From the NCBI GenBank assembly GCA_043820105.1, contig JBDREC010000111.1:1-18192 (forward strand): a stretch of 18,192 nucleotides of DNA. Reading direction: 5' to 3'. Each line of letters opens with the position of its first letter. Position 1 is the stretch's first letter. Source of the DNA: JBDREC01 sp043820105 [NCBI: Pseudomonadota bacterium]. Its GTDB lineage: Bacteria; Bdellovibrionota_F; JAHFAK01. The position numbers were made by a program, and so were the translations under genes. The notes below the pieces were generated by a model, which saw nothing but the letters and a program-made list of their open reading frames with translations, had not been told where the DNA came from and ran no database searches. Positions 7,154 through 13,864 of the stretch are shown here, piece after piece.

Positions 7154-7525
7154 TTAAACTCTTATTACAAAATTAATTCTCTCTTTCAAATAATCGGTAT
7201 TATATGGCTTGGGAATAAAATCATAAGCCCCCATCATCATAAAGGATTCTTTCATCTTGTCTTTTGCTGTAAGAATTATGACAGGAATGTCACGTGTATT
7301 TGTATTAGCTTTTAGCATCCAAAATAGCTCATATCCTGTTATATTAGGCATCATTACATCAAGTAATATCACATCTGGCCTTTCTACTATAGCCTGATGA
7401 AAACCTTCCAATGGATCTAAGTTAGTGATAACATTATATTCTTCGTTTTTAAGTAAGACTCCTAAGGTGAAAAGAATATCTTCATCATCATCAATAATTA
7501 GTACTTTCTTAATGTCTTGTGGCAT
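7154..7525 (-). CDS. stand-alone response-regulator receiver domain protein (CheY-like)
   Basis: The 123-residue product is a single receiver domain with no output domain. Its key residues are present: the acidic cluster IDDDED (D12-D14), the phosphoacceptor Asp56 in ILLDVMMP, Thr86 in ILTAK and Lys106 in PKPY. A longer reading of the frame exists, but the start is fixed by a strong AAGGAGGAGG Shine-Dalgarno sequence just before ATG 7525-7523. A near-consensus promoter lies about 33 bases upstream of the start codon. The family relays phosphate from a histidine kinase to a partner protein. No kinase is encoded nearby, so the partner is unknown. It lies 259 bases downstream of the peptide gene on the same strand but has its own promoter, so it is probably a separate unit. 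Confidence 0.95.
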   Translation of the reverse strand: MPQDIKKVLIIDDDEDILFTLGVLLKNEEYNVITNLDPLEGFHQAIVERPDVILLDVMMPNITGYELFWMLKANTNTRDIPVIILTAKDKMKESFMMMGAYDFIPKPYNTDYLKERINFVIRV

Positions 7526-7564
7526 TTCCTCCTCCTTTTTCAAGAATACCCCCTTGTAATTCTT

Positions 7565-7593
7565 ATTATATAATATCACTTCATATAAGTCAA
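7565..7593 (-). promoter_or_regulatory. near-consensus σ70 promoter of the receiver-domain gene
   Basis: Read on the minus strand, TTGACT (7593-7588) and TATAAT (7570-7565) are separated by exactly 17 bases. The -10 is perfect and the -35 matches 5 of 6. The expected start of transcription is near 7558, giving a leader of about 33 bases before ATG 7525. This is the strongest promoter I can see in the window. Confidence 0.8.
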
Positions 7594-7597
7594 AAAG

Positions 7598-7613
7598 TGT
7601 GATAAAAGTCACA
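7598..7613 (-). promoter_or_regulatory. CRP/FNR-type operator candidate
   Basis: TGTGATAAAAGTCACA fits TGTGA-N6-TCACA, the classic CRP-type half-site arrangement, with both five-base arms perfect. It begins 5 bases upstream of the -35 box of the receiver-domain gene, centred about 47 bases before the expected transcription start, close to where CRP-family activators bind. No DNA-binding CRP-family protein is encoded in the window. The cyclic-nucleotide-binding protein at 10787 lacks a DNA-binding domain. Confidence 0.55.
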
Positions 7614-7784
7614 AACCTAAATTGATTTAATAAAAACAAGTACTTAGCTCAAATTCTGCATGGATTTAAATTCCATTTTTTAAATAAAATACGAAATAAT
7701 TGATAAAAATTGCAAATTTGCAGAGAAATTTCATTAAAAAAATTGTTTATAGAGGAATTATTGATGAAAAAAAGTTATTTATAT
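7614..7784. other. intergenic region between peptide gene and receiver promoter
   Basis: This stretch carries no convincing gene. It contains a perfect 12-base palindrome TGCAAATTTGCA (7711-7722). A weak hairpin with arms ATGGA and TCCAT (7660-7676) is followed by five T on the plus strand. Neither makes a convincing terminator for the minus-strand peptide operon. Confidence 0.4.
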
Positions 7785-7802
7785 CTAATTGCCAGTTCCT
7801 GA
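7764..7802 (+). other. 12-codon aborted ORF resembling the start of an exported protein
   Basis: On the plus strand AGAGG (7751-7755) lies 8 bases before ATG 7764. This is followed by MKKSYLYLIASS and then TGA. The Lys-Lys start and hydrophobic run look like the beginning of a signal peptide. The ORF overlaps the 3' end of the convergent peptide gene. It may be a gene remnant cut off by arrival of the minus-strand island, or chance. Confidence 0.25.
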
Positions 7803-7994
7803 TTCACATTTTCCAAATGCAGCTGCACCGCTATTGCATTTTGAACCAGCAGCAGCTCCTGCTTCGCAACCTGAATTTGCTTCAGGTCCAGCTACACAGC
7901 TGGCTGGATTCCCGGCAGCATCTCCATTAATACAAGCAGCTGCACCTATTCCAGGTGGATAAATTCTATATATTTTAGGTTCTTGATATTTCAT
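7785..7994 (-). CDS. putative RiPP precursor peptide with five C-x-x-G repeats (ScmA-like)
   Basis: The 69-residue peptide begins MKYQEPKIYRIYPPGIG, a short leader-like segment of about 20 residues. It then has Cys at 21, 33, 43, 53 and 63. Each Cys starts a C-x-x-G motif: CING, CVAG, CEAG, CNSG, CESG. The last four are exactly 10 residues apart and the intervening residues are Ala, Gly, Ser and Asn, so the core is an imperfect decapeptide repeat. AGGG stands 7 bases before ATG 7994-7992, and the gene starts 13 bases after the stop of the ScmC gene, so the two are surely co-transcribed. Cys-repeat peptides beside maturation genes are typical substrates for radical-SAM thioether-forming enzymes. 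No such enzyme is in the window. Assignment to the ScmA family is from context and memory, not a search. Stop codon is TAG. Confidence 0.75.
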   Translation of the reverse strand: MKYQEPKIYRIYPPGIGAAACINGDAAGNPASCVAGPEANSGCEAGAAAGSKCNSGAAAFGKCESGTGN

Positions 7995-8007
7995 TATTGA
8001 TCCCTAT

Positions 8008-8883
8008 TTATATTACTTTTTCGATTTCTTCCCAAAATTTACCATCTAAAGTTGCGTCCAGATTATATGCTGGAATTTGCATACTAATATTAGCTGCATT
8101 ATTAAACATATGACTAAAATACATTTTTTTGTCTACGGGTCTAATTTTTGTAAAAAATGATTCAAGTGGTTGTTTTAGACTTTGATAAATCCCCTGGCAA
8201 GCTTCTCCTTTTGAAAGAGGTGTTACTTTATCAATTTCTGCTTGCTTTAGAAAAAATATAGCCTTTAAAGGGACTGAATAACTAGAATTAAATGTTGAAT
8301 GTTTTCTTAGCCAGAGATGGTCAGACCATGTTGGAAGAGGGTGGCCGACAATTTGCTTGTCTTTGTCTTTTAATAATAAGGCCATATCATCAGACAATGG
8401 TTTCCAATAATCCGGCAATCTTTCATAACATGTAGATTTACCAACTCCACCGGAAGCCGCGATTAAAATGCCCTTGCCATTTAACTCTGCAAAAGTTGCA
8501 TGAATGGGGCCTCCGTTATTTGAACAATAGAACAGACTTATTGGTCTAACTAATGACCACATATTAATTACTTTTATTTCAGGATGATCAATATACTCTT
8601 TGTTTATTTCAACCAAGAATTCAGGAGTTTTTTTATTAATAACAACTCTTGCTGATTTACCTTGTTTTATTTCAATATAATCATCTTTATTATATTCTGT
8701 TTTTTTATTTTCATTATTGTATTCATTGATGATAATTTTATATTCAGAGTTTGAAGCTTCGGTTTTTTCAAGACCCAGTATTTCAGCAAAATTATTTAAA
8801 AGAGGTTTCAGTTCTTCTGAATATGAAAAAATCCAATCTTTTCCATCTGCAAATTTCAGTTTATAGTTTAAATAATTTATCAT
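8008..8883 (-). CDS. scmC: HPr-kinase-like SynChlorMet cassette protein ScmC
   Basis: The 291-residue protein has an N-terminal α/β region (about 1-100) and a C-terminal kinase-like nucleotide-binding domain. This contains HATFAELNGKGILIAASG, a P-loop SGGVGKST (K149, S150) and LSDDMALL (D165, D166). The last matches the Asp pair that binds metal in HPr kinases. GHPLPTWSDHLW, SVPLKAIFFLKQAE, TPLSKGEA and the ending DGKFWEEIE are hallmarks I associate with ScmC of the SynChlorMet cassette. HprK homologues in peptide clusters can phosphorylate the peptide (as in some lasso-peptide pathways), but the ScmC reaction is not established. It is the first gene of a two-gene minus-strand operon with the Cys-repeat peptide. 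The ribosome site before ATG 8883-8881 is weak. A poor promoter-like pair (TTTTCA, 16 bases, TAAAAT) lies just upstream on the minus strand. Confidence 0.85.
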   Translation of the reverse strand: MINYLNYKLKFADGKDWIFSYSEELKPLLNNFAEILGLEKTEASNSEYKIIINEYNNENKKTEYNKDDYIEIKQGKSARVVINKKTPEFLVEINKEYIDHPEIKVINMWSLVRPISLFYCSNNGGPIHATFAELNGKGILIAASGGVGKSTCYERLPDYWKPLSDDMALLLKDKDKQIVGHPLPTWSDHLWLRKHSTFNSSYSVPLKAIFFLKQAEIDKVTPLSKGEACQGIYQSLKQPLESFFTKIRPVDKKMYFSHMFNNAANISMQIPAYNLDATLDGKFWEEIEKVI

Positions 8884-8994: not shown

Positions 8995-9023
8995 TTGACA
9001 TGCCGCGACAGATTTGCTAGATA
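8995..9023 (+). promoter_or_regulatory. candidate promoter with perfect -35 for the exported helical protein
   Basis: A perfect TTGACA (8995-9000) is followed after 17 bases by TAGATA (9018-9023), a poor -10 box. It lies in the divergent space between scmC and the gene at 9109. The TTG in this -35 box also opens the long reading frame, but it is not a credible start codon. A 14-base palindrome CTTTGAAGTCAAAG (8939-8952) lies on the other side and could be an operator. Confidence 0.35.
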
Positions 9024-9108
9024 TGCCGCTCACTTCAAAACCAAATTCAAAAGCTTAAGAGTATATTTTATAGCAATTTTTTTTATTAATAAGGATATTT
9101 TCAAGCAA

Positions 9109-10425
9109 ATGTTATATAAATTAATAATTAGAAGTGTATTGATTTTTATATTAATAACTATTTTCACCTATTTAAATGCTACAGAAGATAAAGAGCCAAG
9201 TGTAGAAGAAATTGAAAAATTACTGCAATTAAGATCTCGTACTTCATCACTTTTTATTAAAAGCAAGCTTGATGCCTATATTAATGAAGTCGATATGTCA
9301 CAGTATTCAGACTTAGAGAAAGCTCAGATTTATGAACTAATTTTTTATAGAGATAGTGAACAAAACCAAGTGGATAAAAGTGGTGAATTGGAAGGACTAA
9401 AACCAACTCTTGCTGATTTAAAATTCATGATCCAAGAAGAACAAATACACAAAATACCTCTTGTTCAGCGATTATTAATTTCTACGATAGTTGCCTTAGA
9501 TGTATCTGAAATGAGTCCTTCAGAGGTTTATGATTTTGCAGAAGTAACAAAAACTATTCAAAATCCTCAATTTGCTCAACATGCTGTGAGAAAGTTTGCT
9601 TCAGCAATATTTAGTTATTCATTAACCTTGCCTTATCCTCCCAAAAATACAAAAGAAGGCAGAAAGCACAAAGATTATGTAATAGCAAAATCAGCTGCGA
9701 TATCTGATGCTCTTGCAATTATTGCCAGAGCAAGCGATGATATTGTTATTAGGCTTGATGCTGTAAGGATTTCTATTTTTAGTGTTAATAGACTTTATGC
9801 AAGCTTGGGAGAAACAGGTATAATATATGGTGTGGAAAACTTTTTAGAATGTTTAAATATTTTTCTAGATAAAAATGATCCAGTAAATGTCAATAATATG
9901 TCAGTGCATTTGAAAGCTCAGGTAGCTTTTATACAGCTTGTATCAAATATGCTTTTAAGCAATATGTTTGACAGAGAATTATTACCCTTTTTGCTAAATG
10001 CCTTAGAAAAAGTTGCACAAGAAACCGAATTTAAGGAGGTCAAAACTATTATTTCTAGAGTACTGTTATTATCTGTTCATTTGTTTAGGATAGAATATGG
10101 TGAAGGCAATCCTTTATCAGATAAAGCACTTTTAACACGAGCAAAATTAGATGAAGCTTATTCTGTTAGAGCTTTTTCTGATCAAGATTTAAGAAATAAA
10201 GGTTCAGATATTAGTTTAGATAGCATTTTTATGCAGGCTGATATTGCAGACCATGAAATTTCTCTTGAAACAAGGTTAGCAGAAAGGCTTGAACCTGATA
10301 CCCGAAGTCTTGATGATATGCTAAGGGGTATGTCTGAAGGAAGGTCTGTAGAGGAACTTATCAAAGCCAGAATAAAAGATAGTGAAAATAGAACAGGAAG
10401 AAGCAAACCAGGTAAAGTTCGATGA
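9109..10425 (+). CDS. Sec-exported α-helical repeat protein, function unknown
   Basis: The frame is open from 8995, but ATG 9109 gives a clean signal peptide (MLYKLIIRSVLIFILITIF, cleavage after LNA) and a 438-residue product. AAGGA at 9091 is rather far, 13 bases upstream. The mature protein is helical with few Cys and an ARM/HEAT-like hydrophobic rhythm. A segment EMSPSEVYDFAEV followed by NPQFAQHAVRKFAS resembles SMSPAAFLDVAHE and SPKVAERCLEII in the protein encoded at 14068, which suggests the two are distant paralogues. The C-terminal 70 residues are charged and end in a basic tail, SKPGKVR, like the proteins at 159 and 16344. It is probably periplasmic. A weak terminator follows the stop. 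I recognise no named family. Confidence 0.8.
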   Translation: MLYKLIIRSVLIFILITIFTYLNATEDKEPSVEEIEKLLQLRSRTSSLFIKSKLDAYINEVDMSQYSDLEKAQIYELIFYRDSEQNQVDKSGELEGLKPTLADLKFMIQEEQIHKIPLVQRLLISTIVALDVSEMSPSEVYDFAEVTKTIQNPQFAQHAVRKFASAIFSYSLTLPYPPKNTKEGRKHKDYVIAKSAAISDALAIIARASDDIVIRLDAVRISIFSVNRLYASLGETGIIYGVENFLECLNIFLDKNDPVNVNNMSVHLKAQVAFIQLVSNMLLSNMFDRELLPFLLNALEKVAQETEFKEVKTIISRVLLLSVHLFRIEYGEGNPLSDKALLTRAKLDEAYSVRAFSDQDLRNKGSDISLDSIFMQADIADHEISLETRLAERLEPDTRSLDDMLRGMSEGRSVEELIKARIKDSENRTGRSKPGKVR

Positions 10426-10786: not shown

Positions 10787-11254
10787 ATGAATCTTCAAGA
10801 ATATTTAAAAGCAATTTTTTTATTTGAAAAATTTTATGTCGATGAACTTAATGTTTTGTGTGAAACTGCTCAAGTTAAAGAGTTTGAAGATAATGAAATG
10901 ATTTTTGCAGAAGGAAGTTTGCCAGATGAGTTTTATGTTGTTTTAGAAGGTAAGGTTTCTATTTTAAAAAATGTAGCTGGTGGTCGCAAAAGAGTGCTTG
11001 CTGTGCTTGAAGAAAGCAAGGTTTTTGGTGAAATTTCATTGTTTGATAATGAACCAAGGTCTGCTGGGGCAGAAGCATCTGGGGACACTAAAATTGTAAG
11101 TTTTAACATTGAAAAGTTTCGTTATATTCTTGATACAAATTCACAACTCGCCGCTAAATTTCAAAGACAGATCATTCTAATTTTGGGTTCTCGAATAAGA
11201 AAAACAAATGAAAAATTAAACCAGGGAATTATTTGGGGATTTACCACACAATGA
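10787..11254 (+). CDS. single-domain cyclic-nucleotide-binding protein
   Basis: The 155-residue protein is one cyclic-nucleotide-binding (CRP-type) domain. The β-roll is at about 30-110 (IFAEGSLPDEFYVVLEGKVSIL) and the phosphate-binding cassette is FGEISLFDNEPRSAGAEA. Glu82 and Arg91, the residues that hold ribose and phosphate, are both present, so ligand binding is plausible. After the C-helix (about 121-146) there are only a few residues, so there is no helix-turn-helix. It is not a transcription factor by itself and more likely acts as a sensor or adaptor. AAGGAG (10774-10779) sits 7 bases before the ATG. Its stop TGA overlaps the next ATG (ATGA), which couples its translation to the outer-membrane protein gene. 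Confidence 0.9.
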   Translation: MNLQEYLKAIFLFEKFYVDELNVLCETAQVKEFEDNEMIFAEGSLPDEFYVVLEGKVSILKNVAGGRKRVLAVLEESKVFGEISLFDNEPRSAGAEASGDTKIVSFNIEKFRYILDTNSQLAAKFQRQIILILGSRIRKTNEKLNQGIIWGFTTQ

Positions 11255-12525
11255 AAAAAGGCTTTTTGTTTTCATCCCAAAAGCCAATTATAATTTATCT
11301 TCTTTGTCTAATTCTGTTTTTTGAAATTACAATAAATGCACAAGATAGTGATAATTTTACTAGCATTATAAGTATATATATTGATGACTCAACAGGAGCC
11401 GTTGATGAAGAGTTTATAAAAGAAAAAATATCTTTGGTTAACTACGCTATTGATAGGAAAGATTCTCATGTTCATGTAATTGTTACTTCGCTATCCACTG
11501 GCTCTGGGACAGAATATGTTTTAGAATTCTATGGAAAGAAAAAATTTAAAAATATTGATGATAGGATAACATTTAATATTTACTCCAATGATTCTGATGA
11601 TCAAATTAGGAAATCTCTTGTTTATAATTTAAAACTTGGTCTTTTCCCTTATCTAATTCGAACAACTTATCTAAAAGACCTTTCTTTAACTTATAAAAAA
11701 CAAAATTTATTAGACTTAAGTAATGACCCCTGGGATAAGTGGGTTTTTACATTGGGATTACAGGGTTCTTTTAATGGAGAAGAATCAACAAATACTTTAA
11801 ACATGAAAAGTACTTTTGATGTTGATCGGGTTACCGAAGATTGGCGTTTTGATTTATCTTCTAATTATACATATAATAAAAGCTCCTATGAAATTTCTAG
11901 TACTGAAACTATTGATTCCATATTAGATGAAAAGACACTCAATCTTACTATCGTTAAAAGTCTTGGCCAGCATTGGGGCTTGGGTGTTAACGGAAGAGTG
12001 CAGGCATCCTCATATAGTAATTTAGATTTTTCAAGCAAATTAGCTCCTGCAATTGAATACAATATCTTTCCTTATTCTGAAGCTAATAGACGGATTTTTA
12101 GGATTCATTATTGGCCTGGTTTTTATTATCAAAATTACACAGAAGAAACTATTTATGATAAGTGGTCAGAGTTTTTATTTGGTCACTATCTTCTTTGCGC
12201 ATATAGCATGAAAGAACAATGGGGACAAATCGATTTTTCAACCTCAGGCTTTCATTATTTTCATGATTATGAAAAATATTATGTTAATATTGCTAACACA
12301 TATAGTGTTAATTTATTTAAGGGACTATCTTTAGATCTTTATGGCTATCTTGCAATGATTCATGATCAGTTAACCTTGCCAAAGGGAGGGGCAAGCCAAG
12401 AAGAAATTCTATTGCAACAAGTTGAGATTGAGACTTCTTACACATATACAATTTCATTGGGATTAAGTTATAAGTTTGGTTCTAAGTTTAGTAATATTAT
12501 TAATCCCAGGTTTGGTTATTATTAA
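11251..12525 (+). CDS. outer-membrane β-barrel protein with periplasmic N-domain, copy 1
   Basis: ATG 11251 overlaps the preceding stop. The 424-residue product has a signal peptide ending at INA before QDSDN. About 30-155 form an N-terminal domain with VNYAIDRKDSHVHVIVTSLS, TEYVLEFYGKKKF and IRKSLVYNLKLGLFPYLIRT. I recall this domain from a widespread but unnamed family of outer-membrane proteins in diverse Gram-negative bacteria. From WDKWVF (near 160) to the end the sequence alternates aromatic and polar residues in amphipathic strands, with family motifs such as IVKSLGQHWGLG, EYNIFPYSEANRR and YTEETIYDKWSE. It ends NPRFGYY, and the terminal aromatic residue fits outer-membrane assembly. 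The function is unknown. The next gene is a paralogue. Confidence 0.85.
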   Translation: MKKGFLFSSQKPIIIYLLCLILFFEITINAQDSDNFTSIISIYIDDSTGAVDEEFIKEKISLVNYAIDRKDSHVHVIVTSLSTGSGTEYVLEFYGKKKFKNIDDRITFNIYSNDSDDQIRKSLVYNLKLGLFPYLIRTTYLKDLSLTYKKQNLLDLSNDPWDKWVFTLGLQGSFNGEESTNTLNMKSTFDVDRVTEDWRFDLSSNYTYNKSSYEISSTETIDSILDEKTLNLTIVKSLGQHWGLGVNGRVQASSYSNLDFSSKLAPAIEYNIFPYSEANRRIFRIHYWPGFYYQNYTEETIYDKWSEFLFGHYLLCAYSMKEQWGQIDFSTSGFHYFHDYEKYYVNIANTYSVNLFKGLSLDLYGYLAMIHDQLTLPKGGASQEEILLQQVEIETSYTYTISLGLSYKFGSKFSNIINPRFGYY

Positions 12526-13742
12526 TGAAGAATATTCGTTTTTTTATATATTTTATGCTTATTTTTTTAGTGGCTACTGGTCTTTTCTGTGCCCAGGAGA
12601 AAAGTATTCCAAATTTGTTTATTGAAGCTGATGTTGCTAATCTTAGAGAGGCTATTGAAAAAATTGAGTTTGTCCGGCTTGTTGAAAATATGGATTTGGC
12701 TCAGATTTCTTTGAAAATTAGAAAACATGATTTTGATAGTATTTATTATCTTGAGTTTAAAGGTTTTGGCGATTTTGAGGGTATTGATGATGATTATGTG
12801 ATTAAGATTAAGAGTGAAGAAGACGAAATTCAAAGTATTATAAAAAATATTGAAATAGCCTTGTTAAAATATATGTCAAAAACCAAGTTAAAGAATAATT
12901 TCAAAATTCATTTTGATAAAAATATGAAAGCCAATAAAAAACAAGAAGATGAATGGGATTATTGGGTATTTCAAGTTGGAGGAAGCATTAATCTTACTGG
13001 CGAACAAACAAGAGATACACAGACGTTTTCTGGTTTTGTTTATGCTGATAGGATAACAGATGAGGTCAGGCTTGATATTAATCTAAGCGCAAGTTATGAA
13101 TCTCAGAACTATGAGCTTATAGATAGCACCATCACAAGTGTATATGAAAATTATTCTCATACTTCTTCCTTAGTGAAAAGTCTTGGTGATCATTTTGCCT
13201 ATGGTTTTCACTTTGGTACAACTCAGTCTTCATATGACAACCTGGATTTATATGCTTACATAACTCCAGCAGTGGAGTACAATCTTTTTCCATATTGGAA
13301 ATCAAATCATTATATTTTAAGGGCCTATTATCGAGCAGGATACGTTTATAATAATTACATTGAAGAAACAGTTTATAATAAATGGGAAGATCACTTAGCT
13401 AAACAATGGCTGAGTCTTGCATTTTCAGCAAATGAAAACTGGGGTACAATTCTTGCCTCAATTTCTGGTTCAAACTATTTTCATGATTTAACATTATATA
13501 GATTAACAACAAATAATTCCATTGATTTTAAATTATTTGGAGGTCTTGCTTTATCTCTTGGTTTTGATTTTTCCTTAATAAGTTCCCAATTATCCCTTCC
13601 ACTTTCAGAAGCCAGTGAAGAAGAGATTTTATTAGGAGAGATCCTTCTTGAAACTTCCTTTGACTATTCTCTTACTTTTGGCTTTACATACACCTTTGGC
13701 TCTGATAAAGCGCATGTTGTTAATCCAAGATTTGGGTATTAG
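12525..13742 (+). CDS. outer-membrane β-barrel protein with periplasmic N-domain, copy 2
   Basis: The start ATG shares one base with the preceding TAA (TAATG), so translation is coupled. The 405-residue product has a signal peptide ending near LFCA before QEKSIP; the Cys there is not in a proper lipobox. It matches copy 1 through the barrel: WDYWVFQVGG, ADRITDEVRLD, LVKSLGDHFAYG, VEYNLFPYWKSN, YIEETVYNKWED, NYFHDL and SEASEEEILLGE. It has the same ending, NPRFGY. The N-terminal domain is more diverged than the barrel, and copy 1's VNYAIDRKDSHVHV is not preserved. I infer a tandem duplication followed by change of the periplasmic domain, perhaps to bind a different partner. The stop is TAG at the same place where copy 1 stops, so TAG works as a stop here. 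A long heptamer array follows. Confidence 0.85.
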   Translation: MKNIRFFIYFMLIFLVATGLFCAQEKSIPNLFIEADVANLREAIEKIEFVRLVENMDLAQISLKIRKHDFDSIYYLEFKGFGDFEGIDDDYVIKIKSEEDEIQSIIKNIEIALLKYMSKTKLKNNFKIHFDKNMKANKKQEDEWDYWVFQVGGSINLTGEQTRDTQTFSGFVYADRITDEVRLDINLSASYESQNYELIDSTITSVYENYSHTSSLVKSLGDHFAYGFHFGTTQSSYDNLDLYAYITPAVEYNLFPYWKSNHYILRAYYRAGYVYNNYIEETVYNKWEDHLAKQWLSLAFSANENWGTILASISGSNYFHDLTLYRLTTNNSIDFKLFGGLALSLGFDFSLISSQLSLPLSEASEEEILLGEILLETSFDYSLTFGFTYTFGSDKAHVVNPRFGY

Positions 13743-13752
13743 AGAAATTATT

Positions 13753-13864
13753 GGTATCTGGTATTTGGTATTCAGTATTCGGTATTCGGTATTCGGTATT
13801 CAGTATTCAGTATTCGGTATTCGGTATTCGGTATTCAGTATTTAGTATTCAGTATTTAGAATTC
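13753..13864 (+). repeat. 7-bp tandem repeat array, unit (G/A)GTATTC, 16 units
   Basis: Sixteen 7-base units run without a break: mostly GGTATTC and AGTATTC, with edge variants GGTATCT, GGTATTT, AGTATTT and AGAATTC. G and A alternate at the first base in runs (three GGTATTC, two AGTATTC, three GGTATTC). That suggests higher-order duplication of a longer block. It begins 10 bases after the TAG of the second outer-membrane protein gene. It is the longest of the three heptamer arrays. Confidence 0.9.

Follow-up and report, generated by a model that had tools for sequence, protein, structure and literature searches.

The SynChlorMet (SCM) cassette and its ScmC and ScmA components are already known as database families (TIGR04248–TIGR04252); in the literature we searched, no paper names SynChlorMet, and none found for ScmC or ScmA, or for an HPr kinase combined with radical SAM, PqqD or RiPP, apparently describes the SCM system. 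The locus reported here resembles this cassette in encoding an ScmC protein that scores over its family cut-off, adjacent to a cysteine-repeat, ScmA-like peptide. It differs in that no ScmD, ScmE, ScmF, S26 protease, ABC exporter or NTP transferase was found in the 18 kb analysed (a stretch of 18,192 nucleotides, hereafter the window), and in that the kinase gene precedes the peptide gene.

Linear Polyphosphorylated Peptides (LPPs) likewise combine an HprK-type kinase with a peptide carrying a [Y/W]xxPx[LVIFA] leader, and their core genes (Popov et al. 2026, PMC13381572) match in kind the accessories of full SCM cassettes: PqqD/RRE, a signal-peptidase-like protease, an ABC exporter and an NTP transferase. 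The paper mentions no radical-SAM enzyme, ScmC or SynChlorMet, and its authors call LPPs restricted to Bacillota. The longer LPP consensus printed there, YxxPxVLxHQxIxFETxxS, is not matched by the window's peptide, and none of the genes expected at an LPP locus (SpI-like protease, RRE, NTP transferase, exporter) was found in the window. The lasso-peptide kinases PadeK, ThcoK, SyanK and PsmK are HPr-kinase homologues encoded beside a precursor and bearing a His-Lys-Asp-Asp motif (PMC9266682, PMC8498205); mutation shows this motif to be essential (PMC9266682), and the substrate is the precursor peptide (PMC8498205). They differ from our locus in targeting a C-terminal Ser and in residing in lasso clusters: the window's peptide ends in Asn, not Ser, and neither a lasso macrolactam cyclase nor a B2 protease appeared among the Pfam matches of the 12 window proteins scanned. 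Prochlorosin and synechococsin precursor genes are scattered away from their modifying enzyme (PMC10783134), which is the likeness to our locus, although their chemistry is that of lanthipeptides.

On the minus strand of the window, the ScmC gene (8883 to 8008) is followed after a gap of 13 nt by the peptide gene (7994 to 7785), so the tight two-gene arrangement described in the initial annotation is present as stated. The 291-aa ScmC protein scored 235.9 bits with TIGR04249 (NCBIfam cut-off 125), which bears out its earlier naming; in the comparison with HprK and TIGRFAM models suggested at that time, it reached only 20.2 bits with the HPr(Ser) kinase/phosphatase model TIGR00679 (cut-off 240) and also fell far under the NCBIfam cut-off for HprK-related kinase A. 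Its AlphaFold2 model has a mean pLDDT of 93.2; in Foldseek, PEPCK matches began at E 2.3e-7 and HprK matches at E 1.4e-5, both among the best, and VIA-align put PEPCK first (2pc9_D, Z 14.4, rmsd 4.3 over 248 residues), a lead of PEPCK over HprK on which we base no choice of substrate. ScmC is thus modelled as a P-loop kinase of the HprK/PEPCK fold.

The predicted active site comprises His128, the P-loop residues Gly148-Lys149, and Asp165-Asp166. Equivalents of His128, Lys149 and Asp165 are kept in 70 of 70 aligned ScmC proteins, and that of Asp166 in 67, with Glu in the other three. The first loci had been fetched with a motif demanding the Lys and both Asp residues, the His never being selected for; 37 of the 70 lack this motif, and 34 of those 37 retain all four residues, as do all 11 ScmC proteins of another alignment. 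The window's protein also matches every one of the 14 columns that are invariant across 27 ScmC sequences. Taken together, the fold model and a His-Lys-Asp-Asp set like that of proven lasso kinases suggest that ScmC probably phosphorylates the peptide encoded beside it; this peptide-kinase role, the site of phosphorylation and the co-transcription of the two genes are inferred. We rejected a role as an HPr-type regulator of carbon use, because the score is far under the HPr kinase cut-off and because ScmA-like peptides lie within 3 kb of ScmC in 50 of 69 loci. Phosphorylation of a C-terminal Ser in the style of the lasso kinases is also unsupported, given that just 3 of 65 other ScmA-like peptides end in Ser. 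On a tree of ScmC proteins the window's sequence forms a long branch (1.65), and we found no confirmed relative of it in plasmids or, in a search for close relatives only, in viral contigs.

Elsewhere in the family, ScmC is fused to a signal peptidase domain of the S26/S24 type: with the protease last and over the Pfam cut-off in L084 8917-10428(-) and L085 3615-5195(+), and with the protease first and under the Pfam cut-off in L072 2768-4528(+). Such fusions tie the kinase and leader removal together.

The peptide gene (7785..7994, minus strand) encodes 69 residues that begin with the leader MKYQEPKI, in which YQEPKI (residues 3–8) fits [Y/W]xxPx[L/V/I/F/A]. Five cysteines follow, at positions 21, 33, 43, 53 and 63 (spacing 12, 10, 10, 10), each within CxxG. 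With the database ScmA model TIGR04252 the peptide scored 12 bits against a cut-off of 35; this is a narrow model, since at E ≤ 0.01 it also missed the peptide of a complete cassette (L034) and that of a bare pair (L057). With a profile of our own, built from 15 peptides near other ScmC loci, the window's peptide scored 37.6 bits (E 6.6e-10) among 5341 small open reading frames, placing it in the leader-plus-cysteine-repeat family; the best of 2000 same-letter shuffles reached 13.3 bits, so that the peptide stood above all 2000. A leader-only profile ranked the peptide first of 117 window reading frames (E 0.098, with 1 of 2000 shuffles higher), and we set this result aside as too weak for argument. 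Among the relatives' ScmA-like peptides, CxxG occurs at 301 of 385 cysteines, the commonest cysteine spacing is 10, and 63 of 65 carry a [Y/W]xxPx[LIVMFA] leader motif, in which M also counts at the final position. The Ser and Thr residues of the cysteine-type peptides show no strong positional preference.

None of the window's reading frames of at least 50 aa matched ScmE or ScmF, and none of at least 60 aa matched PqqD, S26 protease, ABC exporter or NTP transferase (E ≤ 1e-4); ScmD, ScmE and ScmF thus do not join ScmA and ScmC at this locus, as the initial annotation had noted in reporting no cassette maturase. Its description of the two neighbours also holds. Downstream of the peptide gene lies a receiver-domain protein (7154..7639, minus strand; response-regulator families, best 75.5 bits), and on the other side an exported-looking protein (8995-10425, plus strand) with no Pfam match at E ≤ 0.1. 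A flanking exported protein had no match in 37 genomes, in a search that lacked a positive control and so carries no weight. A separate promoter-like site at 7593-7565 (11 of 12 positions) makes it probable, if tentatively so, that the receiver-domain gene stands outside the ScmC–peptide unit, although sites of this sort are in no excess in the region (9, against a shuffle mean of 10.2). Inspection by eye also shows a receiver-like protein some 3 kb from the L057 pair. The visible flanks, of 7.8 kb and 9.3 kb, are filled by other genes, most of them without Pfam matches. Two adjacent exported-looking proteins there, 11233-12525(+) and 12525-13742(+), are 37% identical over 336 residues and represent a tandem duplication with no Pfam match; just beyond, at 13749-13864, is a tandem array of 7-bp (TATTCGG) and 28-bp units spanning about 110 bp. 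The window gave no Rfam match at gathering scores and no tRNA, and three of its proteins gave no match to defence families.

Scanning species-representative contigs with an ScmC P-loop pattern yielded 33 loci from many phyla, archaea included, of which 31 were kept (L010 and L029 were dropped, their isolate names being the same as those of L005 and L013). In these 31 genomes, ScmC was matched in all and over cut-off in 30, and ScmF was over cut-off in 26. A second sample, 395 genomes from the phylum of G011 searched by profile, held ScmC over cut-off in 18; ScmF was over cut-off in 7 of the 14 ScmC genomes that were new. The closest ScmC to that of the window (L022/L034, 40–41% identity) sits in a full cassette, with PqqD (ScmD, 127.8 bits), ScmE (640.4), ScmF (633.6), four cysteine-repeat peptides and ScmC, together with an S26-type signal peptidase, an ABC exporter and an NTP_transf_5 protein. 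The findings that might have undone the earlier assignment thus did not arise: the protein belongs to the ScmC family, and peptides of its relatives do adjoin modifying enzymes. In the phyla of G020 (74 genomes), G008 (198) and G021 (395) no relative exceeded 41% identity over a long stretch, the sole exception being a 55-residue piece at the end of a contig (47%). Fifty relatives have a peptide no farther than 3 kb from ScmC; the nearest one shares the strand of ScmC and lies upstream of it in 39 cases, and shares the strand but lies downstream in 6, which makes the kinase-then-peptide order of the window a minority arrangement. Gene content can also be richer, as at L038 1-12273 (G004), where three ScmC genes and seven ScmA-like profile matches surround one ScmE–ScmF pair.

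How often does ScmC stand apart from ScmE and ScmF? We took a census of 69 ScmC genes, not counting the window, with up to about 10 kb fetched on each side. In 45 the fetched stretch carries ScmE or ScmF, never farther off than 5.6 kb; the distance is no more than 1 kb in 34 of them and no more than 3 kb in 42. Of the other 24, 16 run into a contig end less than 5 kb away, and the remaining 8 (L041, L044, L057, L060, L061, L075, L088 and L089) have flanks of 5 kb or more in either direction. ScmF is over cut-off elsewhere in the genomes of five of these well-flanked loci (G009, G011, G012, G013 and G085); two more come from genomes where ScmE accompanies a partial or broken ScmF (G330 and G341), and one is in a genome with neither ScmE nor ScmF over cut-off (G016).

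Sorting loci with our own profiles for PqqD, S26 protease, ABC exporter and NTP transferase defined a bare class, with none of the four and a cysteine-rich peptide: the window, L044, L057, L045 and L058. L044 and L057 have 7.7–9.5 kb of flank on each side, while L045 and L058 each have one contig end within 1.5 kb. The bare ScmA–ScmC pairs of G011 and G012 coexist with full ScmE–ScmF cassettes on other contigs (ScmF 614.8 and 603.7 bits, respectively); G027, which carries L058, has ScmE at 584.7 bits and two ScmF pieces. L061 also lacks all four accessories, with no peptide found. Two loci are partial, with cysteine-rich peptides and no PqqD: L089 (S26, NTP) and L075 (S26, ABC, NTP), the latter belonging to the broken cassette of G330. 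L051 is partial too: its contig ends at a distance of 4.6 kb, and beside ScmC it shows PqqD and, on the other strand, a weak match to a cysteine-bearing peptide. L060 and L088 have PqqD and NTP transferase with no peptide found. Shortly after the bare pair in G011 there is a 2011-aa open frame (L057 10990-17025(+)).

We placed these loci on a quick ScmC tree of 68 proteins. With rows cut by contig ends omitted, separating the eight well-flanked loci and the window (9 rows) from 44 cassette rows took 8 changes, so the loss of neighbours is not one old event. In the genome that carries L044, the ScmC of the bare pair and that of the cassette are sisters (support 100/99), the pattern that budding of satellites from a cassette would produce.

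Among 51 genomes tabulated, an ScmA-like peptide with two or more cysteines occurs in 42, and ScmF is over cut-off in 35 of those 42. The remaining seven have lower-scoring or partial ScmF: G015 (376 bits); G604, G639 and G645 (300–323 bits, adjacent); G027 (the two pieces noted above); G558 (a piece at a contig end); and G330, where ScmE is whole and ScmF broken. None of the 42 had a cysteine-type peptide with no trace of ScmE or ScmF. In G330, a single contig of 3.4 Mb, ScmD–ScmE lies about 325 kb from ScmA–ScmC (L093 7953-9340(+) and L075 10590-10790(-)); the only ScmF there is a short C-terminal stretch, 46 residues matched, beside ScmA–ScmC, and the cysteine peptide is kept.

A different class of locus emerged in the phylum of G016, where 10 of 39 genomes matched the ScmC query. 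Of eight tested, seven had no ScmF over cut-off, the best other match scoring 86.5 bits in genomes of unstated completeness; the eighth, G1085, has ScmF at 629.7 bits and an adjoining cysteine-repeat peptide. Five of the seven (G1121, G1087, G1100, G1099 and G1098) have a leader-type peptide adjoining PqqD and ScmC, an arrangement repeated at the second ScmC locus of G009, and in the other two, G1088 and G1102, no peptide was found. The leaders read [Y/F]EKP or YEPP, with L or I at the second residue beyond, and all seven peptides are free of cysteine. These YxxPxL-type peptides, each beside PqqD and ScmC, lie at L108 8987-9217(+), L110 7689-7904(+), L111 5261-5518(-) and 10815-11012(-), L114 9047-9226(+), L115 9062-9256(+) and L041 8532-8837(+); the seed set recovered the L110 peptide and the second peptide of L111 without containing them, and five of the six genomes concerned lack ScmF over cut-off. 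Seven ScmC proteins of this class score 173–271 bits on TIGR04249. PqqD is present, with no ScmE or ScmF, in L041 and in all of L108–L115; all four accessory genes occur in L109–L112, and also in L114 and L115 if a distant S26–NTP open frame is counted, and one or two of the four are missing from L108, L113 and L041. The frames in question, starting at 1720 and 4205 in L114 and L115, each match both the S26-protease and the NTP-transferase profiles and are likely fusions. Visual inspection places most of the cysteine-free peptides next to a gene whose large product looks exported, and several have endings of the SFDWL or SYEWL kind. These cassettes resemble Linear Polyphosphorylated Peptides, and they lie outside Bacillota.

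These comparisons bear on what the window's pair might be. We favour, with a probability of roughly 60% from our analysis, a satellite kinase–precursor pair of an SCM-type RiPP pathway whose maturases would act in trans. ScmC would phosphorylate Ser or Thr of the peptide made by the next gene; the YxxPxI leader is of the kind read by PqqD-type recognition domains; and the core, a Cys-x-x-Gly-x-x-Ala repeat in steps of ten, would be modified at its cysteines by ScmE and ScmF encoded elsewhere in the genome or beyond the ends of the window, with the leader cut off by the cassette's S26-type protease, likewise in trans. Five regularly spaced cysteines with no accessory genes argue for reading the window as a satellite and not as self-sufficient, and since PqqD, protease and exporter are all missing, more than ScmE and ScmF would have to come from elsewhere. 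The in-trans role of ScmE and ScmF is proposed by analogy, because no relative over a long stretch exceeds about 41% identity; the bare cysteine-rich pairs of G011 and G012 lend this analogy to the earlier suggestion that the cassette is split across the genome. Counting against the satellite reading are the minority gene order, the distance of all relatives, the weak leader score and the long ScmC branch, as well as the unpositioned Ser and Thr residues, a peptide end that is not Ser, and two genomes: G016, with no ScmE or ScmF over cut-off, and G330, with a cysteine peptide and a broken ScmF.

The other option in the initial annotation was a minimal form, with the HprK-like protein as the sole enzyme acting on the peptide. 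Such a form does exist in other genomes, with cysteine-free peptides, with PqqD and, to differing extents, with a signal-peptidase-like protease, an exporter and an NTP transferase. For the window itself we consider it unlikely that the kinase suffices and that radical-SAM chemistry plays no part. PqqD–ScmC cassettes with no ScmF over cut-off in seven of eight tested genomes of the G016 phylum speak for that idea, as does LppK, which according to PMC13381572 polyphosphorylates a core Ser in a pathway free of radical-SAM genes; yet all seven peptides of those cassettes lack cysteine and every such locus has at least PqqD, none being bare, whereas the window's peptide keeps its five cysteines at regular spacing, and neither PqqD nor a protease or exporter was found in the window. 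Slightly less probable again is a decaying remnant of a cassette that lost its maturases, of which the broken cassette of G330 would be a precedent: the reading frames of both window genes are open, none of the five CxxG units is damaged, the 14 invariant ScmC columns are shared, and well-flanked loci devoid of ScmE and ScmF are scattered over the ScmC tree, all of which tells against decay. The least probable of these alternatives is an unusually loose cluster whose remainder lies just outside the window. Flanks of 7.8 and 9.3 kb leave room for it, but where ScmE or ScmF was near ScmC, in 45 of 69 loci with at most about 10 kb fetched per side, it was never more than 5.6 kb away, and both flanks of the window are occupied by other genes.

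As far as the literature searched extends, neither the cysteine-free ScmC cassettes nor their likeness to LPPs has been described. Scattered prochlorosin and synechococsin precursors are not known to carry a kinase of their own. ScmC itself gains a testable role, as a peptide kinase, on three lines: its active-site residues are those of proven lasso kinases, it persists beside a leader peptide in genomes free of ScmF, and its accessory genes resemble those of LPPs, whose kinase is reported to polyphosphorylate the core. More tentatively, and at a little under even odds, the kinase–precursor pair may be the heritable unit and the radical-SAM maturases an optional, shared layer, giving SCM where cysteine repeats are present and an LPP-like class where they are not; the product of the window would then be phosphorylated by its own kinase and modified at its cysteines by distant enzymes. 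Searches anchored on radical-SAM genes would miss satellite precursors such as this one.
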